Virus record (IMG/VR): IMGVR_UViG_3300034073_004278
Span: 1-39,582 of that record
DNA: 39,582 nucleotides
Origin: a virus
Strand: one strand, 5' to 3'
Position numbers and translations under genes: made by a program. Under the pieces are notes generated by a model that did no database searches, was not told where the DNA came from, and worked only from the letters and a program-made list of their open reading frames with translations. This document shows, one piece after another, positions 12 to 12,456 of this stretch; positions within the stretch are counted from its first letter, which is position 1, and every line of letters starts with the position of its first letter.

Positions 12-1688
12 ATGTTCGCCTCCGCATCCCAATCCTCCGTTGATCAAATGTTCCAAGGCCTGCGAGACCGCCAGAAGATCGCCACCGGCGGCAGCATCGG
101 CGTGACCCGGCCGCAAGACAAGCGCACCTCCATCCGTGTCGGTGCACCGTTCGATCCGTTCATGAATGGCGTGCCGATGTCTGCCATCCCGCCGGGACAT
201 CCGGCGGCGCAGATCGCAGACGGCGGCCCCTACATCCCGCCGGGGCATCCTGCCGGGATGCTGCTCGGCGGTGGCAATGACACGGGTGGTCTGCCCACTG
301 ACGATCCCGCAGACCGCCCGCCGCGCCAGCGCATCGATGCACGGCCCAAGGCCGCGCGAATGATGGGCGGGCCATCGCTGCCCTTTGGCGGCTTTCGCGC
401 CCGGGGCGGACCGGTGCGGCCCGGCAAGGCGTATGTGGTCGGAGAGCAGGGGCCGGAGCTGTTTGTGCCTGGCGCGTCAGGCAGCATCGTGCCGAATGCC
501 GGCATGAGCCTGGCCGCGCCGCCGATGATCACGGGGGCTCCGCCGGGAGGAATGATTCCGCAGGTGGCAGGCATTCGCACCGCTGCCCAACACGGCCAAT
601 CGCTCGGGGAATACAACCAGTGGATGAAAGACCTCGTGCCAAAAGGCAGCACGAATTATCCACGTGTGCCTTTTGGACGGCCTGCAGGCCCGCCACCGCC
701 GGTTACAGGTGCTCCGCCGATGATCACAGGTGCTCCGCCGATGATCACAGGTGCTCCGCCGATGATCACAGGTGCTCCGCCGATGTCCGGCGGCGGTTCG
801 TTGTCTGATCGTGCCACGATGACCGATGGAGCCCGACGCACCGGTTCGCTGTCCGATCGTAAGGCCGTGCCTGTCGGCCGTGGCATGAGTCCGGAACGGC
901 GTCTGCAGATGTTCGCGCGGCGGGCCTGGACGCGGGGCGATGAGAAGACGGCAGCAGACATTGCGGCACAGCAGCAGCAGCAGAAATCCTATCAGGACTT
1001 TGCGCGGGAGCGCGATGCCGTGAACTTCAATCAAGGACTGTTCATGCATGGCATGAGCCAGCAGGCGCATGCGGCGCAGACTGAGCAGCAGCGGCAGGAG
1101 CGGTTTGCGATGTGGAACGCCGAGCAGGCCGCCCAGTCGGCCCGTGATGCACAGCAGTGGCAAAACCAGCAGACGTTGCATGAGATGGGAGTGAATGAGC
1201 AAACGGCGCGGGATGCCCGTCTTCGCGATCAGGCTCTCCAGGATGAGCAGCGGTCCCGTGAATTCGGTTTGCAGCCCGTGCGCGTGGCAGGAACGACCAC
1301 GCCTTATTTCCAAAACGCCAAGGGGAGCATCTTTACGGGCTCGCCTATTCCAACAGCGCCAGACCCTGCAATGATCAAACGCATGGAGTCCATGGGGATG
1401 AAACCGTCCGGTGCGAACAGTCAGGGAGATATGCAGTTTGCCCCGGCAAAGCCGTCCAAAGCGGAAACGCCGACCGGGATCCAGTATGAAAAGGATGCGG
1501 GTGGTAAAATCACTGGCGGCGTTTATCCGGTCTTGGACGAGCAAACAGGGACGTGGAGGCTGCAACGTCTGGATTTCAATGGAGATGGCAAAGTGTCAAA
1601 GGATGAAGCCGCTGCCGCCCAGGCTGCTGCCGTGTCTGGCGGCAAAAGTGGTTTCACCTGGAAGTCGCTAGTTCAACCCAAGCTTTGA
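12..1688 (+). CDS. Tail-type virion protein with tape-measure-like motif, Gln-rich helix and C-terminal EF-hand
   Basis: A 558-aa protein starting at ATG 12, eight bases after an AGGA. Residues about 131-155 carry a GGPVRPG...VGEQGPELFVPG stretch, a motif common near the C-terminus of phage tail tape-measure proteins. Next comes a Pro/Gly-rich part holding four APPMITG-type repeats and two GSLSDR motifs. A Gln/Ala/Arg-rich probable coiled coil follows (about residues 315-420). At residues 521-532 there is a complete 12-residue EF-hand loop (D521, N523, D525, S529, E532), so calcium binding is plausible. The gene ends 2 bases before the ATG of the giant virion protein. Known: the VGEQGPE motif occurs in tape-measure proteins. 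Inferred: a tail or internal virion protein. It is too short and Pro-rich to be an ordinary tape measure and could be a split C-terminal part of one. Confidence 0.6.
   Translation: MFASASQSSVDQMFQGLRDRQKIATGGSIGVTRPQDKRTSIRVGAPFDPFMNGVPMSAIPPGHPAAQIADGGPYIPPGHPAGMLLGGGNDTGGLPTDDPADRPPRQRIDARPKAARMMGGPSLPFGGFRARGGPVRPGKAYVVGEQGPELFVPGASGSIVPNAGMSLAAPPMITGAPPGGMIPQVAGIRTAAQHGQSLGEYNQWMKDLVPKGSTNYPRVPFGRPAGPPPPVTGAPPMITGAPPMITGAPPMITGAPPMSGGGSLSDRATMTDGARRTGSLSDRKAVPVGRGMSPERRLQMFARRAWTRGDEKTAADIAAQQQQQKSYQDFARERDAVNFNQGLFMHGMSQQAHAAQTEQQRQERFAMWNAEQAAQSARDAQQWQNQQTLHEMGVNEQTARDARLRDQALQDEQRSREFGLQPVRVAGTTTPYFQNAKGSIFTGSPIPTAPDPAMIKRMESMGMKPSGANSQGDMQFAPAKPSKAETPTGIQYEKDAGGKITGGVYPVLDEQTGTWRLQRLDFNGDGKVSKDEAAAAQAAAVSGGKSGFTWKSLVQPKL
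705..785 (+). repeat. 21-bp in-frame tandem repeat, about 3.9 copies
   Basis: Four consecutive copies of a 21-bp unit beginning acaggtgctccgccgatgat; the last is truncated. The unit encodes TGAPPMI, so copy-number change keeps frame and only lengthens the Pro-rich linker of the 558-aa tail protein. A diverged copy lies near 522-545. Confidence 0.9.
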
Positions 1689-1690
1689 TC

Positions 1691-4600
1691 ATGCTTTACG
1701 AAATCACCAGCCAGCAGACCGGCAAGACCTACTACATCGAGGGAGAGGGCACGCCCACGGAAGACGACATGGTGGCAGCAGGCCAGGCGCTCGATGCGGA
1801 GTCAGCGCGTCAAGCGGGCGTGGATCCGGCCGTCTTGGAGCAAGGTCCCGTGGGCACGTTCGTGAACACCGTGCGGAACATCGGGCCGGAGTTGGTGGAC
1901 ATGACGGTCGGAGGTGTGGCAAAGTTGAACGATGCCATTGGCCGCAGTCCGCTCGCGCCTCTTTCGCCCGTGGGCATGGCGAGTGAGGCGGTGCGGAGGA
2001 TGTCTGGAGCTGAGCAAAGCCCGCTGGGCACGCTGGCGGATGCCACGGGCGTGATCCGCGAGGAAGGCCAGCGCATGCGGCCGGTGAATCCCTTCAACGA
2101 GACGGCCCGGACCGTGGGCGGAGCGGTGAACCAGATCGGCGGCATGATCGCCACGGGCGGCCTCGCCACGGCGGCGGGCATGGCTCCTGCCACGGCCATG
2201 ACAGCGATTCCCGGAGCGATCGGTTTCGCCGCGGGCGCGGGCCAGGGCGTGGACACCGCTCAGGAAATGGGCATCACCGACCCAACCACGCAGGCCGCCA
2301 TGGGCGCGGCGTTTGGCGGGGTGGAGATGCTGACGGAACGCATCGGCGGCATTGGTGGCGATGTGGTGGACAAGTTCATTCGTCCTTCGTCCTTCGTGGG
2401 CAAAGCGGCCATGAACATCGCCAGCGAATCCGGCGAGGAGCTTCTGGCAGGCCGTGCGCAGGATGCGTTGACCGTGGCAGCGGGGCAGACGGTGGCCGAT
2501 CCGCAGCGGCCGGGCTTCACCCAGAACGGTTATCAGCTCCCCAGCCTCAACCCTCTGAATCCGGACACGCTGGCGCGGATGAAGCAGGAAGCCATCGGCG
2601 GCGCGGCCGGGGGCGTGATTTTCAGCGGGCTGCAAGGGCTCGCGAATCGTGGACAAGCGCAAACCAATGACAACCTACCATCGAGTGAAACGGCAGCGGC
2701 GGCTCAAGCGCCAGCAGGAAATCAATCGCCAGCTCCAGCTTCCCAAGGGGGTGCGGTGCCTGATGCGGGTGCTGCGGTGAATGCGCAGTTTCAGCAGCAG
2801 GCGCTGATCACGCCCGCGCCGATCGTGCCCGGCCTCGATGAGCATGTGAGCGATCTCACGGCGGAGGATGTGGCGGACTTGGAAGCTACGGCCGGCCAAA
2901 ACTTCTTCGCCGCCCGGACCTTTCCCACGGCGGCAGTGGCCGCGAATGCGGCGGCCGTGGCCCAGGGGCAGCAGTGGGGCGAGGCCTCCGCGCCGCTGAA
3001 ACGCATGCTGCAAACCGGCCAGGGCGCGGCACCGCCGCTGCCAGCGGGCACGGGACGCGGCGCGGGTGTGTTCTTCCAGCCGCCGCAATCCTCCATGCCC
3101 CAGGCAGCACCGGACAGCACGAGCCTGCTGGCACCGGCGTATGAGATGGCGGCACGTGGTCAAAGCACGGCCATGCTGCCGCTGGCCTCCGTGTTCGCCG
3201 CCGCGCGTCAGGCGGATCCCACACTGACCGCCGAGGCCTTCGCCGATCAGATCCGCCAAGCCTACGAAGCAAACCAAGTGATGCTGGAAGGGGCGAACAG
3301 CCAGCAGGAAATCGACAGAGCGGGCTTTGTCATCGGTGACACGCCCCTGGGCACGGTGGTGCGGATGGCGATGCCGGCGCGTGTGAGTCTTGACATGGCC
3401 AGCCAAAACGCTCAGGATGCGTTTTATGAAGAGCCCCTTGCCAGCGGAAGCTACAGCCTCGCCGACCGGCAGGATGCTACCACCGCCTACCGCCGAGGAC
3501 TCGGCGAGATTGCTCGAAGAGCAGCGAATCTGGGATCAACTGCACCGCGGGGAAATCCGGGAATTGCCGGACTGGTTGAAGCACCGGCTGGCGAACGGTT
3601 TGGTGTAGTCCCGCGCAACAACGGCGAGTTTCACCTGCAGGTGCCAGCCGACTTTGACGCGAACCTGTGGGCCGAGAGCAAGGGCAACGGCCGCCGCTAT
3701 GCGCAGCGGCTCAACGCGTTGCTGTTCGAAGAGCAGGTGCACATGGCGCAACTGGCCGCTCTCCGGACGCGATGGGAGAAGGCGGGCCGCCCGGGCAATT
3801 TCAACACCTTCATCACAGCGCAGGCAGCGGAGATCCTGCAAGACATGCAGCAGGCAGGCGCACGGGCCATGCCTGCCGAGCTGGCAGCCATGCAGCAGGC
3901 GCTGCACACGGCCTTCAAGCTCTACTTTGACGCGGAGTCAACGGCCACGCCTGAGATGCTGTGGCAGGCGCTGAATCAGCCGTGGATGCTGGAACAAATG
4001 GTGAGGGGAAGCAGCAGCAGCCTGCTGCTGGAATTCATGCGCCAGATGATCCAGATGCAACGCACCGGCGTGGTGTCTGAAACGGCCTCGCGCACCTGGC
4101 TGGACAAACTGAAGCAGTGGATCCGCGACGGGCTGGACGCCCTGAAACGCGCCTACCGCCTGGGCACTGCCGGAACGATGGGGGCGCATGTGCGCGACTT
4201 CATCGCCGAGACGGAAGCGCTGCTGAACGGCGATGCGAACGCGCTGCCCTTCATCCCCGACACGCTCGATGATGGCGCGGCCGGGCCGATCATCGGCGCG
4301 AGTGAGATGGGACCGCCCGAGATGCGGCAGACGCGATCACGTTTCGCTCGTCCCGATGAGCAGGAACAGTGGTATGAAACCCGCGCCGATGAAGAGGTGA
4401 AGTTTGAGGCGACGGGATGGCTGGACAGCCGCACGCTGGAGGCTGCGATTGACCAGCTCGGCAGCGCGGAGATGCCGCCGGGCATCACGAGCGAGGATGT
4501 GCGGCAGCAGGCGCTGGGCATGGCGATCCGCCGGGCGATGGTGCTGCTTGATCAGGGCGATGAATTCGCCCGCAGCCAGGCGCGTGTGCTGGCAAACCGG

Positions 4601-7600
4601 GCGGCGCGGCTGTATCAGGATGCAGGCCGTGAAGCGGCCCGCTCCATGCGCCAGCGTGCCGTGGTGAATCACGAGCTGATGCCGCATGCGCCGATCCTGG
4701 CGGCGGAGAAGCTGCTGATCGACCGTGCGGACCGTGTGATGGACAAACGCTTTGACGGCGGGGCCAAAGGCGGCGCGGCGAAGACGACGGAAACGGCGGC
4801 CACCGCAGGCGCGGAGGCGGGCGCGGAGCTGGGTTCCAAGCTCAATGGTGAGAAGCAACCGGACACGCCAGCGCAACGGCAGGCCCGGGAGAAGATCAAC
4901 CAGGCGCAACGCACCGCGCAGAACATCCTCGATGAGCTGTCCCGTCGCTACGCCGATCCGCCTGTGTATCAGCAGGGGCAGCGGCTGGTGAATGCCATGC
5001 GCGAACTCTACAAGGAACGCGTGCGCACCGGCATGGCTGAGGCTGAGTTTGTGCGGCGGGCGATGGAACTGGGCGCGGCGGAAGGCACGGCCGGCATCCT
5101 GTGGGAGGCGTCGAAGCTGGAGATCGCGGCCCGGGAAATGATCGCGGCGGAGAACGCACGGAAGCCTCTCGACCGGCTGTTGTCGCAGGACAGTCCGGCA
5201 CTGGCGAAGCTGCTCAACGAACTGCAAAAGAAAATGTTCCCAGGCATGAACTGGCAGACGATCTTCGAAGAGCTGCCCAGCCAGCAACGCGAGCGCCAGC
5301 GGGCGATCTACCAGCGTCTGCGCTCGGATGAACGTCTGCGCAGCCTGACACAGGGCGAGGCTTTGCAGCTCACCAACGAGCTCGACAAGGCGTGGCAGCG
5401 TGAGAGGCGGACAGTGTTCCTGCGTGCGATGAAGAAGGCGGGAGCCCTGGGAGCCAAAACACCCACGGACCGGCAGAAGGTCGAGAAGGCCTACCCCAAG
5501 CTGCTGCGGGCGATCAATCTGGGGCTGATGACCAGCGAGACCTTCCGCGAGGCGGTGGCACCGGAATACGGTCTGAAGATGATCACGCAAGCGCAGGCAG
5601 CAGGCCTGCGCACCCTGGCGGAGAAGGCTTACACGCAGCCTCCCGGCATCCTGCGGAACAAGCTGCTGGCGGATCTGCTGAGCAGCATCCAGAAGACCGT
5701 TGGCGTGTCCCGTATCGAGCTGCTGAACAGCTACTGGACGGCGGCGGTGCTGTCGGGATTGCGCACGCAGTTTGACACCTTCATGGCGGCGGCAAACGGC
5801 CTGGGCACGAACCTGATCCAGACCGGCCTGCTGGCGGGCCGTGGCAGACTGACGGCTGCCAAGGAAGTACATGCCGAGTGGTGGCGTGGGTTTGCCGAGG
5901 GCGTGAAGGAAAGCCTGCGCATCCTGGCCCAAGGCGATTACAGCTACACGAAGCGCTTCAACGAGGATCTGCAAAAGGCGCTGGAAGGGGACAGCCATTA
6001 CCGCCCGGTGCCGATCAGTGAGACGTATTTCAAAGAGCACACCTGGGGCCAGTGGCAGAAGTATCCCGCGGCGATCATGCTTTTCGTGGGGCGGGCGATG
6101 ACAGCCGCAGATCACATCAACAACACGGCCACCACACGCGGCGCCATGGCCGTGGCGCGGGCGCTGCATCCGGAGCTTTACGGGCAGGTGGGATTCACCA
6201 CGGCTGAACGTGAAGCGGCGATGCAACAGGCTTTGCACGAGACGACCGGCGGCAACACGATCGGCCTGACGAATGACGAAAAGGCCACGCTGCAAGCGCG
6301 GGCGCGGGAGATCCTCTTCAGCGGGTTGAACCCGGAGCACGCGGCCGATGCAAACGAGACAGGCAATGTGGCAGCGTATCAGAATGATCCGACCGGCGTG
6401 TTTGGCTGGCTCTACGATGTGCTCAAGAGCGGTCTGGGACGCGGAGCGGCCGCGCTTGGCGAAGTGGCGGAAGACGTCGAGGCGCGCAAACTCACGCGAG
6501 CCATGGCCGCATTGGTCGGAGGCGCTTTGTATGGCGTCACAGGCACGCGATTCATGCGCTTTGGGTTCAACTTCGGCGCAGATCTCACGCGCTACGTTCC
6601 GGGCACCTACCTGGCGGGCATGGCGGGATTCTATGGCCGCGAAGTGAGCCCGCAGCAGCGTGATTTGCTGCTGGGTAAGAACGTCGTCGGGCTGATGGTG
6701 GCGTCCACCGTGGCAGCGCTGTTTGCGGGCAAGGATGACGATGAGGACGGCTGGCACATGGAAGGCCCGTGGAACGAGCTGAGCCTGCAAGACAAGGCGG
6801 CGCGTCGCTCCGCCAAACTGGAGCCGCTGACGTTTTGGAAGCGGAATCAGGATGGCAGCGTTTCGAAGATTTACTTCAAGCAGTGGCCGACGATGGGCAT
6901 CCTGGCCGCTGTGGGCGGCGCGGAGGATGCGCGGCGCTTCCAACCCGAGAAATTCGCGCAACGCGGTCTGAGCGGGCATCTGGGGCACGGACTGGCGACT
7001 GGCCTAGTGCAGATCGAGAACGTGAGCGCGATGCGCAACCTGGGCGAACTCTTCGCAGGCAGCTTCACGCAGAATGCAGAGGATGTGTTCCTGGCCAAGG
7101 TGAGCAAGACGTCCGCCAACTACGTCGGTGGATTCGTGCCGCGTGTGCTGAAGGACATCGATGCATGGATCGATCCGCAGAACTACAAGCCGGAAGGCTG
7201 GATGCAGCAGGTGATCGCCGATCAACCCATCGTCCGCCGACTGGTGAACGATGGCCGCCCGCAGCTCTCGATCCTCGGCAAGCCGGTGGAACTGAACCGT
7301 GCGCCGTGGAGCCGCATGCTCGCCACCAACAAGGCCGATGTGGAAGAGCATCTGCTGGCCAAACTGATGGTGCGAGGCATCAATCTGCCGGGAGCCAGTG
7401 ACAAGATCATGGCTACTCGCAACGGTGAGCGGCAGACGCTCGAATCCATGGGCGGCGATGTAGCCTACCGCTACCAGAAGGCTGTGGGGGAAGGCTACGC
7501 CGAGCTGCTGCGCACGAACGGCCAGGAACTCCTCACGCTGCCGGCGGATCAGGCGCAGAAGTGGCTGAATCGAGCGGCGGACAGCATCAAGAGCCGGGCG

Positions 7601-7624
7601 ATGTTCAAGGCCATGCAGCCGTGA
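1691..7624 (+). CDS. Giant virion-associated (polyvalent / DNA-ejection-type) protein
   Basis: A 1977-1979 aa protein. I place the start at ATG 1691, because its first residues (MLYEITSQQTGKTYYIEG) match the short YEI-x-GKTY-x-IEG module that opens many phage internal virion proteins; a TTG at 1685 is also possible. Residues about 140-215 are rich in Gly/Ala and hydrophobic residues, which suggests membrane-active segments. Residues about 270-480 are low-complexity Ala/Gln/Pro linker. The rest is long, mostly helical and charged. A hydrophobic patch near residues 1655-1680 is followed by an acidic KDDDEDG cluster. I see no catalytic motif. Size, position at the end of the virion module and amphipathic character suggest a protein packaged in the particle and ejected with DNA, as for T7 gp16-like proteins, but homology is not established. 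Confidence 0.55.
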   Translation: MLYEITSQQTGKTYYIEGEGTPTEDDMVAAGQALDAESARQAGVDPAVLEQGPVGTFVNTVRNIGPELVDMTVGGVAKLNDAIGRSPLAPLSPVGMASEAVRRMSGAEQSPLGTLADATGVIREEGQRMRPVNPFNETARTVGGAVNQIGGMIATGGLATAAGMAPATAMTAIPGAIGFAAGAGQGVDTAQEMGITDPTTQAAMGAAFGGVEMLTERIGGIGGDVVDKFIRPSSFVGKAAMNIASESGEELLAGRAQDALTVAAGQTVADPQRPGFTQNGYQLPSLNPLNPDTLARMKQEAIGGAAGGVIFSGLQGLANRGQAQTNDNLPSSETAAAAQAPAGNQSPAPASQGGAVPDAGAAVNAQFQQQALITPAPIVPGLDEHVSDLTAEDVADLEATAGQNFFAARTFPTAAVAANAAAVAQGQQWGEASAPLKRMLQTGQGAAPPLPAGTGRGAGVFFQPPQSSMPQAAPDSTSLLAPAYEMAARGQSTAMLPLASVFAAARQADPTLTAEAFADQIRQAYEANQVMLEGANSQQEIDRAGFVIGDTPLGTVVRMAMPARVSLDMASQNAQDAFYEEPLASGSYSLADRQDATTAYRRGLGEIARRAANLGSTAPRGNPGIAGLVEAPAGERFGVVPRNNGEFHLQVPADFDANLWAESKGNGRRYAQRLNALLFEEQVHMAQLAALRTRWEKAGRPGNFNTFITAQAAEILQDMQQAGARAMPAELAAMQQALHTAFKLYFDAESTATPEMLWQALNQPWMLEQMVRGSSSSLLLEFMRQMIQMQRTGVVSETASRTWLDKLKQWIRDGLDALKRAYRLGTAGTMGAHVRDFIAETEALLNGDANALPFIPDTLDDGAAGPIIGASEMGPPEMRQTRSRFARPDEQEQWYETRADEEVKFEATGWLDSRTLEAAIDQLGSAEMPPGITSEDVRQQALGMAIRRAMVLLDQGDEFARSQARVLANRAARLYQDAGREAARSMRQRAVVNHELMPHAPILAAEKLLIDRADRVMDKRFDGGAKGGAAKTTETAATAGAEAGAELGSKLNGEKQPDTPAQRQAREKINQAQRTAQNILDELSRRYADPPVYQQGQRLVNAMRELYKERVRTGMAEAEFVRRAMELGAAEGTAGILWEASKLEIAAREMIAAENARKPLDRLLSQDSPALAKLLNELQKKMFPGMNWQTIFEELPSQQRERQRAIYQRLRSDERLRSLTQGEALQLTNELDKAWQRERRTVFLRAMKKAGALGAKTPTDRQKVEKAYPKLLRAINLGLMTSETFREAVAPEYGLKMITQAQAAGLRTLAEKAYTQPPGILRNKLLADLLSSIQKTVGVSRIELLNSYWTAAVLSGLRTQFDTFMAAANGLGTNLIQTGLLAGRGRLTAAKEVHAEWWRGFAEGVKESLRILAQGDYSYTKRFNEDLQKALEGDSHYRPVPISETYFKEHTWGQWQKYPAAIMLFVGRAMTAADHINNTATTRGAMAVARALHPELYGQVGFTTAEREAAMQQALHETTGGNTIGLTNDEKATLQARAREILFSGLNPEHAADANETGNVAAYQNDPTGVFGWLYDVLKSGLGRGAAALGEVAEDVEARKLTRAMAALVGGALYGVTGTRFMRFGFNFGADLTRYVPGTYLAGMAGFYGREVSPQQRDLLLGKNVVGLMVASTVAALFAGKDDDEDGWHMEGPWNELSLQDKAARRSAKLEPLTFWKRNQDGSVSKIYFKQWPTMGILAAVGGAEDARRFQPEKFAQRGLSGHLGHGLATGLVQIENVSAMRNLGELFAGSFTQNAEDVFLAKVSKTSANYVGGFVPRVLKDIDAWIDPQNYKPEGWMQQVIADQPIVRRLVNDGRPQLSILGKPVELNRAPWSRMLATNKADVEEHLLAKLMVRGINLPGASDKIMATRNGERQTLESMGGDVAYRYQKAVGEGYAELLRTNGQELLTLPADQAQKWLNRAADSIKSRAMFKAMQP

Positions 7625-7659: not shown

Positions 7660-7723
7660 AGGGTGGAGCCTGAAAAATGCAACTCATTGAATTTGAGATG
7701 ATTGAAGCCCGGCAAGCATGGGC

Positions 7724-7767
7724 TTGAAAATCCCCGTGTCGGCGGTTCGATTCCGTCCCGAGCCACC
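7724..7767 (+). other. attP: Attachment-site core: 3' half of a tRNA-Phe gene (candidate attP)
   Basis: The segment runs from a TTGAAAA anticodon loop (anticodon GAA) through TCCCC, the variable loop GTGTC, a full T-arm (GGCGG / TTCGATT / CCGTC) and the 3' acceptor strand CCGAGCC with discriminator A and CC. It closely resembles the 3' half of bacterial tRNA-Phe. There is no D-arm or 5' acceptor strand upstream, so it is not a complete tRNA. A 6-bp inverted repeat (AAGCCC...GGGCTT, 7705-7725) overlaps its left edge. Phage structural genes lie left and the integrase gene right, so this is phage-core-phage, the arrangement of attP rather than attL or attR. Confidence 0.75.
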
Positions 7768-7787: not shown

Positions 7788-7896
7788 ACTGGGAAGCGGC
7801 TTGTTTCCCTAGCGTAGCGCATCGTTGGTGGTGTCGTGTCCAGTTTTTAAACCGCATTCCGATGGGGTATGGAATGGGTATATTTTGGACTTGCCG

Positions 7897-7916
7897 AGTG
7901 TCACACAGAGTGTCAC
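7897..7916 (+). promoter_or_regulatory. Paired AGTGTCAC boxes, right of att core
   Basis: AGTGTCAC at 7897-7904 and again at 7909-7916 has the same 12-bp period as the left pair. It lies just upstream of the integrase start at 7927, so a bound protein could also control integrase expression. Confidence 0.5.
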
Positions 7917-7926
7917 ACTCCCAAGC

Positions 7927-9273
7927 ATGAGCACAAAGACGTTTTGGGAGAACCGGGTGGTGCGTGTGATTCGCGGGGTGAAAGTGTCGTTTTACAAGCG
8001 CTGCACGGGCTCCACCTACACGATGGATTTCAAGTTCAACAAGTGCCGCGTGCGTGATGCGACCTATGAACCGACGGTGGCGGACGCGGAAGTGGTGGCG
8101 GAGCGGCGCATCAAGGCGATGCAGATGGAGCGCCAGGAGGCGGAGCTGCTGGAGATGGTGCAAGGCCTGAAGTCGGCGGCCACGGCCGGTGTGGTGAAGA
8201 AGGCGGCCCGCACGGTGATGCTGGACGAGCTGGGACGTGTGTATCTGGCGCACGTGCCGCCTGAGAGGCTGGCGGATTACAAGAAGAACTATGCGCGGCT
8301 GTGCGCGATCGCGACGCGGACGACGGGACTGCCGGTGGAGAAGATCGAGGTGACGGAGGCGACGTTTTCCCGGGCGAATCTGACCGCGTGGGTGCGGATG
8401 ACGCAGGAGCATTTCCGCCGCGGCTGGACGGTGCGTGGCGAGGAGCCGGAGGATGCGTGGCAACAACTGCGCGCGGAGCTGAAGAGCGGCCGGCTGGCAG
8501 CGGAGACCGCCTGGCCGAAGGTGGAGGGCGCGGAGCTGCTGAAGATCTTGCGCAAGGGTGTGTTCCCCGGGGTGGACAAGACGACGGTGATGGAGTGCAA
8601 CACGACGATCCAGACCTACCTGCGGTGTGCGAAGGCCGTGTTTGCCAACGGCAGGGAGTACCTGGTGGGCCTGGAACTGCCGGATCTGCGCGAGTTCCTG
8701 AGCTTCACGGTGGATGTGGCGGCACCTGAAGGGCACCGTGCGATCCCTGACGAGGTTCTGGCGCGACTCGTGGCCGACCTGCCACGGCTGGCACGCGAAG
8801 CGCCAAGGGTGTATGCTTTTTCACAAGTCCTCTCGTGGATGGCGGGTCGGCCGGGGATAGTAAAGAAATTGAGAGGCGATGCGTTACAATTGCTCACCGA
8901 CGGCACAGGAGTGATTACGCTCCCGGCTGCCAAGGGCGGCAATGAAGTAAGGATCGCGGTGGGAGCTGAATGCGTGCAGGCCGTGCTGGCGGTGCGCACG
9001 GCGGACAGCCTCATTGGCGCGCGCCATGAAACCGATGCAGCCAGGATTGATGAGGCGCATCGTGCATGGATGACAAACCATGGCGTAACGGGCACTCTGA
9101 AGAATTATCTGTTCCGCCATATGCGGCTGAACCAGATCCGGAATGTCTTTGATCCGCGCACAGCGGCGGAGGCTGGCGGGCACACAAGCGAAGCGATGGT
9201 CAACCGGAAATACACTCGGAATGAGAAGATCATCCCGCTGGTGGTGCCGGTGACGACGCTGAAGAGTGCGTGA
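7927..9273 (+). CDS. int: Tyrosine recombinase / phage integrase (divergent)
   Basis: A 448-aa protein catalysing site-specific integration. I chose ATG 7927 because in-frame sequence further upstream would have to start at a TTG and read through the AGTGTCAC boxes. The C-terminal catalytic domain shows R308 (in SWMAGRPG), R397-H398 (LFRHMR), G418-H419 (GGHTSEA) and the nucleophile Y429 (NRKYTR), in the order and spacing of tyrosine recombinases. The usual first His of the HxxR box is Tyr394 here. An N-terminal arm-binding part and a helical core-binding part (about residues 90-250) precede it. It stands beside the tRNA-Phe half-site and paired repeats, as expected for its own attachment region. 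Confidence 0.88.
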   Translation: MSTKTFWENRVVRVIRGVKVSFYKRCTGSTYTMDFKFNKCRVRDATYEPTVADAEVVAERRIKAMQMERQEAELLEMVQGLKSAATAGVVKKAARTVMLDELGRVYLAHVPPERLADYKKNYARLCAIATRTTGLPVEKIEVTEATFSRANLTAWVRMTQEHFRRGWTVRGEEPEDAWQQLRAELKSGRLAAETAWPKVEGAELLKILRKGVFPGVDKTTVMECNTTIQTYLRCAKAVFANGREYLVGLELPDLREFLSFTVDVAAPEGHRAIPDEVLARLVADLPRLAREAPRVYAFSQVLSWMAGRPGIVKKLRGDALQLLTDGTGVITLPAAKGGNEVRIAVGAECVQAVLAVRTADSLIGARHETDAARIDEAHRAWMTNHGVTGTLKNYLFRHMRLNQIRNVFDPRTAAEAGGHTSEAMVNRKYTRNEKIIPLVVPVTTLKSA

Positions 9274-9344: not shown

Positions 9345-10289
9345 ATGAAGACGATTCTTACGTTCTTTCTATCGATGGCGGCATTGCTTGCCGCTGATGA
9401 GATCATCCCGGAACTCAGGCTGCAAAACGGCACTGCCTTCAAACAGGTGAAGGTGACGAAGAAAGACGCAGCGGAGATCCGCATCATGCACGCTGAAGGG
9501 TTTGCCACGGTGCGGTTGTCGGATCTCAGCCCGGAAGCGCTGGCGCTGTTCGGGGGCAAGATCGACAAACAGGCGGAGTCGATGGCTGATGCGGAGCGCG
9601 CACTAGCGCGGGCGAAGGCTTATTCACCCACGGTGCCAGTGCCGAGCGTCCCGACTGCTGCCCCAACGCAGACGGCCACGGCACCGCCTGTGGCCATCAG
9701 CGCGGAGGAGAACGCGGCGCGGGCGTGGGAATGGTATCAGTGGTGTGAGGCGAATCCGCAAGGCGATGCGCAGATCAATGCGCAGCAACGCGATGGTTTG
9801 CTGGCGCAGGCCACGCAGATCCTGCAAGCGTGGGAAGCTGCGCAGAATGCCGCTGCTGTGGCGGCACGATCAGGAAGTTTGAGCACGCGGCCTGCGGTTC
9901 CAGTTGGACGCAGCTATCACGATCCTGAACGCGTGGCGGAGCGTTTGGCGCGGCAGCAGATGCAAGGCGCGCAGGTCTCCACACTTGATCAATTCATTGC
10001 GCAGGCGATTCAGAACCGCCGCATGCTGGTGATCAGCTACGATGATGGCGTGAATGGGGCGCGGCTGATCGAGCCTTATTTGCTGGGTGTGACGACTGTG
10101 GGTAATCCTGCGCTCCAGGCGTGGTTTGTCTCCGGAGCCTCGGCCTCAGGCCAAGGGCCGGGCTGGCGGACGTTTCTGCTGGCGCAAATCACGAGCATTG
10201 AATTGGCGGATGAAACCTTCACGCCGCGCCGTGACTATGATGGCAGCGGCGGTGGCACGTTTCAGAGCTTCCAAAGGAGGGTGGAGTGA
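9345..10289 (+). CDS. Exported protein with C-terminal WYL-like domain
   Basis: A 314-aa protein. Residues 1-17 form a signal peptide (MKT, hydrophobic core, AALLAA before DE). Residues about 22-68 form a short strand-rich module (LQNGTAFKQVKV...IRIMHAEGFATVRLSDL) of a kind common in exported Verrucomicrobia proteins. An Ala/Gln-rich helical linker follows. Residues about 212-298 match the pattern of a WYL domain: AIQNRRMLVISYDDG, then RLIEPYLLG, AWFVSGASASG, GWRTFLLAQITSIE and FTPRRDY. WYL domains normally sit in cytoplasmic regulators and sense ligands or nucleic acid; an exported one is unusual. The gene sits between the integrase and the repressor, a usual place for lysogenic cargo. A GGAG and a GGGG precede the ATG. 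The WYL call is fairly sure; function is unknown. Confidence 0.7.
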   Translation: MKTILTFFLSMAALLAADEIIPELRLQNGTAFKQVKVTKKDAAEIRIMHAEGFATVRLSDLSPEALALFGGKIDKQAESMADAERALARAKAYSPTVPVPSVPTAAPTQTATAPPVAISAEENAARAWEWYQWCEANPQGDAQINAQQRDGLLAQATQILQAWEAAQNAAAVAARSGSLSTRPAVPVGRSYHDPERVAERLARQQMQGAQVSTLDQFIAQAIQNRRMLVISYDDGVNGARLIEPYLLGVTTVGNPALQAWFVSGASASGQGPGWRTFLLAQITSIELADETFTPRRDYDGSGGGTFQSFQRRVE

Positions 10290-10729
10290 TGAAGGCGTGG
10301 ATCACGCCTTCCATTTGTGCCCTTGTGGGAATTGTTCTTTGGGCGACGGAAGCAGAGCATCAAAAGCGTGTATCCGCTGATATTCCTGAGCGCTGGAGAG
10401 GTTCCTACGATTCACCGACGGCTTGGCAGCGAGAAGTAGACCGCCGTGTGCAAGTGAGTGTGGCGGGGCAGTTCATCAAAGTGCAGGAGACGAATTACGG
10501 CGAGGTTTTCCCGGCGAAGTTCCTGAAGGTCAAGTGTAGTGTAGACTACGCCGATTATGTGCTGGTGAAAATGCCGGATGAGAACACAGCCGTCCTACGA
10601 CGGCATCCGAGTGTGCCGGGTTTTTATGAGTTTGAGTTCACGGACATCGCCTTCATCGGTGAGACGCCAAACGGACAAGAATTGTATGAAAACCACGGAG
10701 TGGAACCCGTTCCACTGGAGAGGAAATAA
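10289..10729 (+). CDS. Small hypothetical protein with N-terminal membrane anchor
   Basis: A 146-aa protein starting at ATG 10289, one base overlapping the stop of the WYL gene, with a strong AGGAGG at 10275-10280 (GTG 10286 is an alternative start). Residues about 5-20 (ITPSICALVGIVLWAT) are a signal or anchor segment. The rest is soluble and strand-rich and unrecognised. Coupling to the WYL gene suggests the two work together outside the cytoplasm. Confidence 0.6.
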   Translation: MKAWITPSICALVGIVLWATEAEHQKRVSADIPERWRGSYDSPTAWQREVDRRVQVSVAGQFIKVQETNYGEVFPAKFLKVKCSVDYADYVLVKMPDENTAVLRRHPSVPGFYEFEFTDIAFIGETPNGQELYENHGVEPVPLERK

Positions 10730-10837: not shown

Positions 10838-11299
10838 TCAATCCTCGGTGCCGGTGCGGTCTGTGCGATAGGGGCGCGGAGGCTCGGCTACTTTGAGGCT
10901 GTTTGACTTGACCGTCGATGATTCGGAAAAGTGGGTGATGTTTGGAGCGCCTGGCGTTTGGGCGGCAGCCTCTGCGGCGGCATTGAGCTCGTGAATGGCC
11001 CACTGTTCCAAGGTTTGGTCTGAAGCGAGGGCGGCGGCGCTGTAGGCGCGGAAGGTGGGGAGATCGACCTCGACACTGAAGATCTGCGCTTGAGGGAGCA
11101 ACTGCAGCCGGCGTTGCGCCTCTGCGGCTTCGTCGTCTTGCATGAGGCGTTCGATGAGTTTGAGCTTCCCCTCTGGGATTTCTTTGGGAGACGAGAGCCA
11201 GTTATCGACCGTTCGTTTGTTGATGCCGATTTGGTCAGCCAGCCATTGACGCTCTCGATTGTATCTCTTGAGCCATGTTTTGATTTCTTCCTTCGACAT
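10838..11299 (-). CDS. HTH repressor-type regulator (CI position)
   Basis: A 153-aa leftward gene, ATG at 11299. Residues about 14-50 form a helix-turn-helix of XRE type (ERQWLADQIGINKRTVDNWL followed by PEGKLKLIERLM). The C-terminal half (about 65-110) is helical with no recognisable peptidase or dimerisation family. It is the only sizeable leftward gene of the window and faces the early rightward genes across a promoter region with repeated GTGCA boxes, the arrangement of a lambdoid immunity region. I infer that it represses the rightward early promoter and autoregulates. No RecA-cleavage Ser/Lys motif is evident, so induction may differ from lambda CI. Confidence 0.75.
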   Translation of the reverse strand: MSKEEIKTWLKRYNRERQWLADQIGINKRTVDNWLSSPKEIPEGKLKLIERLMQDDEAAEAQRRLQLLPQAQIFSVEVDLPTFRAYSAAALASDQTLEQWAIHELNAAAEAAAQTPGAPNITHFSESSTVKSNSLKVAEPPRPYRTDRTGTED

Positions 11300-11402: not shown

Positions 11403-11615
11403 AGTGCGAACACACTTGCTTTGCCGCCGATTCCTTTGGCTGATCTGCCTGAGCGGACGAAGGATTTCATCATTGCCCTTTGCAATCAGGAGGGGTTGAC
11501 TCCTGAGCAGGCGATCAAAAGGACGCTGGATGCCTCCGCGATGCGAGCTGGCTTTCTGGCGCTGCCCCAAGCTCAACCGGAGGGCGCTGGCCAAGCGGCC
11601 GCGCTGGCGGCGTGA
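11400..11615 (+). CDS. First rightward early gene, Cro position, small protein
   Basis: A 71-aa protein. The ATG at 11400 is inside the right operator element. Residues about 17-50 (LPERTKDFIIALCNQEGLTPEQAIKRTLDASAMRAG) look like a compact helical DNA-binding or ribbon-helix-helix-type region, but no family is certain. The last 17 residues (LPQAQPEGAGQAAALAA) are encoded by a 65-bp DNA segment repeated at 11930-11994, so another reading frame ends in the same residues. Position suggests a Cro- or CII-like role; that is inference. Confidence 0.55.
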   Translation: MSANTLALPPIPLADLPERTKDFIIALCNQEGLTPEQAIKRTLDASAMRAGFLALPQAQPEGAGQAAALAA

Positions 11616-11626
11616 GTGCGGCTGTG
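11562..11626 (+). repeat. 65-bp perfect direct repeat, copy 1
   Basis: Identical over 65 bp to 11930-11994. It contains the last 17 codons and stop of the first early gene and the overlapping GTGA restart. Within it, 11584-11604 can fold into an all-GC hairpin (GCGC, one bulged T, GGCC, loop AAGC, GGCC, GCGC). A 20-bp part recurs at 12412-12431. Confidence 0.9.
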
Positions 11627-11983
11627 AGCGCGTCACACCTTGGGGTGTGCCAGCATCTCATCGAGAGCCTCCCCGAGGTGCGTGATCAACTCCTTCACCT
11701 CATCGGGATGAAGGGTGATGACGGTGTCGTGGCTGAGGGCGGGATTGCCGGGCTGGGAGATGCCGAGGCATTCGTCGTTGAGAATCTTCACGACGACGCC
11801 ACTGCGGGCGGGAATGTGCCATTCGCTCATGAGGTGAAACTTACGCTGAAGTTTGCCGGTGGCAAGCTGCGGGGCTTCAAAGCGACGGCACGGGTGCCTG
11901 AGGCTGAACCTTTCTTTGTGGCGGTGACACTGCCCCAAGCTCAACCGGAGGGCGCTGGCCAAGCGGCCGCGCTGGCGGCGTGA
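11612..11983 (+). CDS. Rightward early reading frame, at least its last third plausible
   Basis: A 123-codon frame opening at GTG 11612, which overlaps the TGA of the first early gene. Its first 70 codons are the exact antisense of the small leftward gene and look less protein-like. The last part, from GTG 11834 (VKLTLKFAGGKLRGFKATARV...), has regular strand pattern and ends with the same 17 residues as the first early gene. A shorter gene of about 50 aa at 11834-11983 is an alternative. Function unknown. Confidence 0.3.
   Translation: MSAAVSASHLGVCQHLIESLPEVRDQLLHLIGMKGDDGVVAEGGIAGLGDAEAFVVENLHDDATAGGNVPFAHEVKLTLKFAGGKLRGFKATARVPEAEPFFVAVTLPQAQPEGAGQAAALAA
11633..11830 (-). CDS. Small leftward protein between early genes
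   Basis: A 65-aa protein with ATG at 11830. The sequence reads like a compact alpha/beta protein: strands VVVKILN and GISQP, then DTVITLHPDEVKELITHL and an acidic helix. This pattern (I-QP, D-VI, P-V-LI-L) is familiar from small uncharacterised phage proteins. Third codon positions are almost all G or C, as in the clear genes of this phage, and more so than in the opposite frame. I therefore prefer it to the rightward frame covering the same bases. No clear Shine-Dalgarno is visible. Function unknown. Confidence 0.5.
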   Translation of the reverse strand: MSEWHIPARSGVVVKILNDECLGISQPGNPALSHDTVITLHPDEVKELITHLGEALDEMLAHPKV

Positions 11984-11994
11984 GTGCGGCTGTG
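11930..11994 (+). repeat. 65-bp perfect direct repeat, copy 2
   Basis: Second exact copy of the 11562-11626 segment, 368 bp downstream and in the same reading frame relative to the preceding gene. It again provides a C-terminal tail, a stop codon and a GTG restart. The GC hairpin is at 11952-11972. Confidence 0.9.
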
Positions 11995-12456
11995 CGCCTT
12001 CTATCGATCTCGCTGGATGTGGCGATGGTCGCGCCCTTGGGGAGCACGGAAACGGAGCTGGTGACGGGCCTGTGCGCGCTGCTGCGGACGCTGGCGGACG
12101 ATCCGCAGCGTGTGCAACGCGAGATGCGCGCCCTGTTGATGCCTAGCGAGTTTTCCACTCCTCCTTCGCCTCCAGTTTCTCTGCCTGCTGGCGCAGGTCT
12201 GTCGGGCTCGTGTGGTGGAACATACGACCCGCAAGCTGCACGGCAGGCGGAGAATTGCGAGTCGCGTGTGCGGTTTGGCTGTCTGGTGGGGCAGGCACGG
12301 CTGTGTCTGAACCTGGTTCGTCATCGGTGTGTGCGTGGAAGCAACGCGCAATTCTATTTGGACACGGCCCGCCGGCTGGGTGCCGATGCCCGGCGTTTGT
12401 GGACACGCTTGCAAGCTCAACCGGAGGGCGCGCCGCAAGGTGCGAAGGCGGCGTGA
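11980..12456 (+). CDS. Hypothetical early protein
   Basis: A 158-aa protein starting at GTG 11980, which overlaps the preceding stop (GTGA). The N-terminal 45 residues (LSISLDVAMVAPLGSTETELVTGLCALL) and the C-terminal 65 (VRFGCLVGQARLCLNLV...FYLDTARRLGADARRLW) look genuinely coding. The Ser/Pro-rich middle lies opposite a possible small leftward gene. The end LQAQPEGAPQGAKAA is a diverged version of the tail encoded by the 65-bp repeat. Unrecognised. Confidence 0.45.
   Translation: MSAAVRLLSISLDVAMVAPLGSTETELVTGLCALLRTLADDPQRVQREMRALLMPSEFSTPPSPPVSLPAGAGLSGSCGGTYDPQAARQAENCESRVRFGCLVGQARLCLNLVRHRCVRGSNAQFYLDTARRLGADARRLWTRLQAQPEGAPQGAKAA
12143..12223 (-). CDS. Possible 26-aa leftward micro-protein
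   Basis: MFHHTSPTDLRQQAEKLEAK and six more residues form a well-defined amphipathic helix with high GC at third codon positions, encoded opposite the low-complexity middle of the rightward 158-aa gene. It would be the second small leftward gene lying among the rightward early genes. There is no visible ribosome-binding site, so this is tentative. Confidence 0.28.
   Translation of the reverse strand: MFHHTSPTDLRQQAEKLEAKEEWKTR

Follow-up and report, generated by a model that had tools for sequence, protein, structure and literature searches.

Research on DNA-damage and anti-phage regulation has treated WYL domains as sensors inside the cell, and to our knowledge every WYL protein described to date is cytoplasmic. 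Does a phage carry one that acts outside the cytoplasm? This question is raised by a pair of plus-strand genes in a 39,582-base virus record (the whole stretch of DNA that was analysed, here called the window), whose phage genes include those for a DNA methyltransferase, a DnaB-like helicase, the terminase large subunit, and virion and tail proteins. The original prediction had read the pair as an apparently secreted WYL-domain protein coupled to a membrane-anchored partner. The upstream gene (9345..10289, 314 aa, ATG start), supported by its ORF, profile matches, a structural model and homologues, very probably encodes an exported WYL protein.

The Pfam WYL profile (PF13280) matched the protein at 18.5 bits in a plain hmmscan, under the cut-off of 21.8, and at 22.5 bits, above this cut-off, in a frame-based search that included neighbours. 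A homologue encoded in the Verrucomicrobiota genome L226 scored 23.7 bits against the same cut-off, and the profile was matched by 15 of 17 family members at E ≤ 0.01. When plasmids were searched by tblastn, stand-alone WYL proteins were found that aligned with residues 211–298, the best match (E 3e-7) being to an annotated WYL protein. An AlphaFold2 model was generated from 28 relatives, a mixed alignment of N-terminal domain and WYL relatives having been left out of modelling as it was misaligned. Confidence (pLDDT) was mostly 93–98 from about residue 221 on and low for the N-terminal domain and the flanking linkers. Foldseek comparison of the model with the PDB gave the WYL activator DriD as best match (E 4e-4), and with VIA-align places 1–14 were all taken by WYL regulators (DriD, PafBC, BrxR and CapW; Z 9.3–11.5), Sm and Hfq proteins ranking after them at Z of about 8.5 and below. 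The fit to DriD (Z 11.5, rmsd 2.2–3.1 over 87–90 residues) is that of an Sm-like SH3 barrel. Where the fold search succeeded, querying the PDB by sequence with the family profile gave nothing useful. As modelled, the C-terminal module is a genuine WYL fold; it spans residues ~208–314 (9966..10286) and shares 50% identity with L226. The WYL-like domain predicted at residues about 212–298 is thus confirmed by profile and model with a somewhat greater extent, and the structural match to WYL structures that had been called for was obtained at Z values of up to 11.5.

The N-terminus of the protein (residues 1–17, 9345..9395; MKTILTFFLSMAALLAA, followed by DE) resembles a signal peptide, with a hydrophobic core in which an 11-residue window has a mean Kyte-Doolittle value of 2.32 and an n-region with a single positive residue. 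An in-frame TAG is located two codons 5′ of the ATG at 9345, which rules out a longer cytoplasmic start of the kind that might have undermined the original prediction, and since there is no longer in-frame start the hydrophobic segment is not internal to a bigger protein. The signal test used was a home-made hydrophobicity and charge heuristic; 5% of shuffles of the WYL protein also passed, so the test on the phage protein alone is weak, and its positive outcome for 15 of 72 neighbouring genes likewise marks it as crude. No AXA cleavage site was found in the phage protein by this heuristic. In the chromosomal L226 homologue a similar segment occupies the corresponding position, and there too the N-terminal domain that comes next opens with PELR. 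What had been described as a clear signal peptide was therefore recovered as a signal-like N-terminus by the heuristic, and the same was seen in all 16 short chromosomal relatives.

Searches of viral and genome collections with short exact peptide patterns from the WYL protein or its partner gave no relative, and for this reason a 16S signature was used to reach Verrucomicrobiota genomes, 388 of which were searched with the phage protein; a second search covered 150 genomes of one family. A WYL-motif DNA pattern matched only stand-alone viral WYL genes, which lack signals, and two matches to a Phe/Tyr-requiring variant of this pattern were both due to chance. The nearest WYL relatives mostly measure 131–152 aa, with a Tat-like (MNRRGFLRA...) or Sec-like signal directly ahead of the WYL module. 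The signal test was passed by 16/16 short Verrucomicrobiota chromosomal relatives, with start codons picked by eye, and by 0/11 short viral or chromosomal stand-alone cytoplasmic controls. Tat-like RR motifs and AXA sites are present in several relatives, and the Pfam TAT_signal profile matched one of the short proteins (E 0.003). Among pairwise changes between relatives, the third-codon-position share was 0.44 in the signal region (p 0.006), with no bias 5′ of the starts (0.37, p 0.15), indicating that the signals are translated. In a tree of the WYL modules those of the phage and L226 proteins pair up (100/98); this pair lies at a greater distance from the short exported proteins than from cytoplasmic copies in Verrucomicrobiota, and export may therefore have arisen more than once, a single origin being also compatible with the tree. 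Judged by these predicted signals, the exported WYL protein is a recurrent Verrucomicrobiota protein type and is not peculiar to the phage; since chromosomes in this phylum encode similar exported proteins, the use of the WYL fold appears to be genuine.

The regions between signal and WYL module also have counterparts in exported proteins. The N-terminal domain (residues 18–75, 9396..9569) is common to other exported Verrucomicrobiota proteins, with 45–53% identity to those in L226, L228 and L229 and 31–42% to seven others. A Pfam scan of this domain gave no family above cut-off, and a short Arfaptin match obtained when the PDB was searched with its profile (E 0.017) was judged to be chance. 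The same domain heads exported papain-like peptidases, so identified from sequence motifs, of an Opitutaceae-like family (L188-L191, L194, L196 and L153). A helical linker module (residues 122–209, 9708..9971), modelled as helices, is 44% identical to the exported Verrucomicrobiaceae protein L230, including the motif RPAVPVGRS.xDPxRxAExLARQQ. Some exported proteins of the Verrucomicrobiaceae family share the N-terminal domain only and others linker 122–209 only, a nearly identical RPAVPVGRS stretch included, and from this scattering of modules over exported host-family proteins the phage WYL gene is, by homology, a mosaic of exported-protein modules from Verrucomicrobiaceae. The L226 homologue (369 aa), from a genome of the family containing Verrucomicrobium sp. 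BvORR034, shares with the phage protein the N-terminal domain (48% identity), WYL (50–51% identity), a signal of similar kind and an integrase nearby, at about 2 kb; its gene adjoins a Gp49-like toxin gene and an HTH antitoxin-like gene. It differs in that WYL stands before the helical module rather than after it, in an extra C-terminal domain and in lacking a partner gene.

The pair had been placed between an integrase and a repressor, and both flanking genes were found by profile or homology. Upstream, a tyrosine recombinase-type integrase gene (7825..9273, plus strand) gave weak matches to Pfam Phage_integrase (E 0.011) and a PHROG integrase (E 0.024), and its product is 48% identical over 86 aa to that of the integrase-position gene of a related phage (L010). 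It is preceded by a 3′ fragment of a tRNA-Ser(UGA) gene (7723..7767, plus strand), probably the attP core, which matches tRNA 3′ ends in 22 of 388 Verrucomicrobiota genomes (≤3 mismatches; best 44/45), the reversed pattern matching in none; ARAGORN detected no whole tRNA at this site. Within a comparison confined to Verrucomicrobiota genomes, this tRNA-Ser remnant supports a host from that phylum. Convergent to the pair is a repressor-like HTH gene (10838..11299, minus strand) with weak matches to PHROG transcriptional regulators (best E 4e-4); its N-terminal part matches, at 48%, a repressor with an S24 peptidase from Verrucomicrobiota genome L176. In L176, at 3192-6001, a weak restriction-endonuclease-like gene and then a cytoplasmic stand-alone WYL gene come after this repressor homologue, an arrangement that could represent a prophage or a defence locus.

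The related phage has a terminase 69% identical to that in the window and no WYL gene, and its interval between integrase and HTH-like gene holds a DUF932 gene and others. The integrase–repressor interval is therefore read as a variable cargo slot, as judged from this one related phage, and absence of the WYL gene from the latter suggests that it is non-essential. The original proposal of lysogenic-conversion cargo thus gains support, from one relative, in the form of a variable slot in a temperate phage. No promoter-like site bearing on expression of the cargo from the prophage was found. A known defence system was considered and rejected, since PADLOC matches were limited to WYL models of a generic, CRISPR-associated kind and to the end of AbiEii. 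The two phages are alike in organisation with a different probable attachment gene, a tRNA-Leu-like 3′ fragment, read by eye, lying at about 90-145 of L010 before its integrase versus tRNA-Ser here.

The downstream gene encodes a protein of 146 aa (10289..10729) with an N-terminal hydrophobic segment. The ORF list starts it at GTG 10286; a more convincing start is ATG 10289, which has AAAGGAGG in front of it. At this ATG a one-base TGATG overlap with the upstream stop, as originally predicted, is combined with a strong Shine-Dalgarno sequence, and the partner is therefore taken to be translationally coupled. The hydrophobic segment covers about residues 4–20 (19-residue mean 1.59), and so the predicted membrane-anchored partner stands as regards the segment itself, with an anchor and a cleaved signal equally possible readings of it; the partner too is likely to end up in the membrane or the periplasm. 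No relatives of the partner were detected in Pfam, PHROG, pattern and sequence searches, weak matches being stop-ridden or out of frame and attributed to chance, and its fold prediction (pLDDT 36) was uninformative. Recurrence of the pair in other phages or Verrucomicrobia genomes, which the original prediction had proposed as a check, was not borne out, the pair being found nowhere else in the viral and genome collections searched. As the partner has no relatives, the pair is not demonstrable as a unit.

The explanation that we favour, and that as a whole appears reasonably probable, is of an exported mosaic WYL cargo protein with a coupled partner, its WYL domain being an extracytoplasmic binding or assembly module. 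The succession of signal peptide, N-terminal domain, helical linker and C-terminal Sm-like WYL module would place the last of these outside the cytoplasm. Such a gene would have been put together from host exported-protein modules and would be carried by the temperate phage in the variable integrase–repressor slot as lysogenic cargo, with the second gene co-translated to give a product with its own N-terminal export or anchor segment. Outside the cytoplasm the WYL module might serve to bind or assemble a small ligand, an envelope component or a protein, and together with the partner it might alter the envelope of the lysogen so as, for instance, to keep out other phages, a guess made from position. 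Position and fold are the sole basis of this functional reading, and an envelope or superinfection role for the protein is put forward tentatively. That exported WYL proteins act as envelope receptors in phages and their Verrucomicrobiota hosts, sensing or capturing a ligand, with the partner here passing on a signal or blocking superinfecting phages, is rather unlikely.

The phage could also have picked up an exported host WYL protein by chance, in which case it would have a housekeeping envelope role, would not be conversion cargo and would not act jointly with the product of the downstream gene. Every module is present in host exported proteins, on chromosomes the relatives stand alone, in differing gene contexts and with no common partner, and the pair is unique to this phage in our searches, all of which would fit such an origin. 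The gene nevertheless sits in the integrase–repressor slot, a position typical of cargo, its closest homologue is itself near an integrase and the toxin and antitoxin-like genes of L226, and the TGATG overlap is accompanied by a strong Shine-Dalgarno sequence; chance acquisition is thus possible but on the unlikely side.

The original prediction had introduced WYL domains as known cytoplasmic sensor domains. The WYL regulators PafBC and DriD bind ssDNA (PMC11804915), and as the model is closest to DriD an extracytoplasmic nucleic-acid or nucleotide sensor might be envisaged, with nucleic acid from outside the cell or the DNA of an infecting phage bound by the WYL module and the signal passed on through the partner. 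The groove of PafB contains residues R181, R204, R208, R211, R214 and Y196, and of these R211 and R214 are needed for ssDNA binding by PafBC (PMC11804915). When groove residues were aligned by sequence via PafB and a canonical Verrucomicrobiota HTH-WYL protein (L160), R181 and R208 were found to be kept in the phage protein as R240 and R275, and Y196 was replaced by F261, but R211 and R214 correspond to L278 and Q281, and R204 is without an equivalent. The module is also slightly acidic (8 K+R versus 10 D+E). With groove arginines missing from an acidic module, nucleic-acid or ssDNA sensing is not predicted, and such a sensor is very improbable; the residues that mark nucleic-acid sensing in WYL regulators are mostly missing. 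Scarcely probable at all is a cytoplasmic WYL protein whose module stays inside, with an N-terminal anchor tethering the protein to the inner membrane, for while WYL proteins known to us are cytoplasmic and the segment, with no AXA site by the heuristic, could be an uncleaved anchor, Lys2 before it and Asp18-Glu19 after it favour an N-in, C-out orientation (positive-inside rule), several relatives have Tat-like RR motifs and AXA sites, and the N-terminal domain occurs with papain-like peptidases and other signal-peptide proteins.

The exported mosaic protein favoured here can be set against known WYL architectures. Like the HTH-WYL-WCX regulators BrxR, CapW, PafBC and DriD it has the WYL fold, and Y232 (the conserved Tyr) and, in the WRxF motif, R275/F277 match conserved WYL residues; unlike them it is exported and lacks the groove arginines R204/R211/R214. 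Neither HTH nor WCX was found in it, Pfam detecting WYL alone and the N-terminus matching exported proteins rather than HTH; the protein ends about 15 residues past the barrel, which leaves no WCX domain. Short stand-alone WYL proteins of about 98 aa from plasmids and viruses, such as Aliarcobacter WP_263515104.1, agree with it in the barrel and in the order of motifs (Y, R..EP, G, G.S.S, GW[RK].F, R.Y) but have no signal peptide or extra domain, whereas the phage protein is predicted to be exported and multi-domain. The short signal-plus-WYL proteins (L141-L150 and L181-L187) are exported like the phage protein, and for most of them WYL is 37–48% identical; they lack the N-terminal domain and mostly have AWQ or GWQ where the phage protein has AWF. 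Some stand-alone WYL genes adjoin ATPase or recombinase genes, and those on plasmids (L003, L005 and L006) were seen beside AAA ATPase or recombinase genes, haloarchaea included; WYL has been reported as limited to bacteria (PMC6789036).

Surveyed WYL proteins are regulators, enzymes and stand-alone domains (PMC4012209, PMC6789036, PMC9122588, PMC9122589, PMC9122601). No report of an exported WYL protein was found in the openly searchable literature, in agreement with the original suggestion of a new use of the fold, and the exported WYL protein is apparently a real and undescribed one. If so, a recurrent exported form without HTH, WCX or the usual groove arginines would represent a fold with another job in the envelope, and the simple proteins of about 100 residues plus signal offer material for finding a WYL ligand. 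As a phage gene, it would be a sign of a type of lysogenic cargo not yet described, in a phylum that has received little study.

Two further features of the window were observed. An ORF of 1,979 aa (1685-7624) before the integrase gave no PHROGs match at E 0.01 and a weak, chance-level match to Pfam. Beyond the repressor-like gene, a 73-nt direct repeat (11557-11629 and 11925-11997; 96% identical, 368 nt apart) crosses the junctions of successive small ORFs, with the result that two different proteins have the same C-terminal tail, LPQAQPEGAGQAAALAA.
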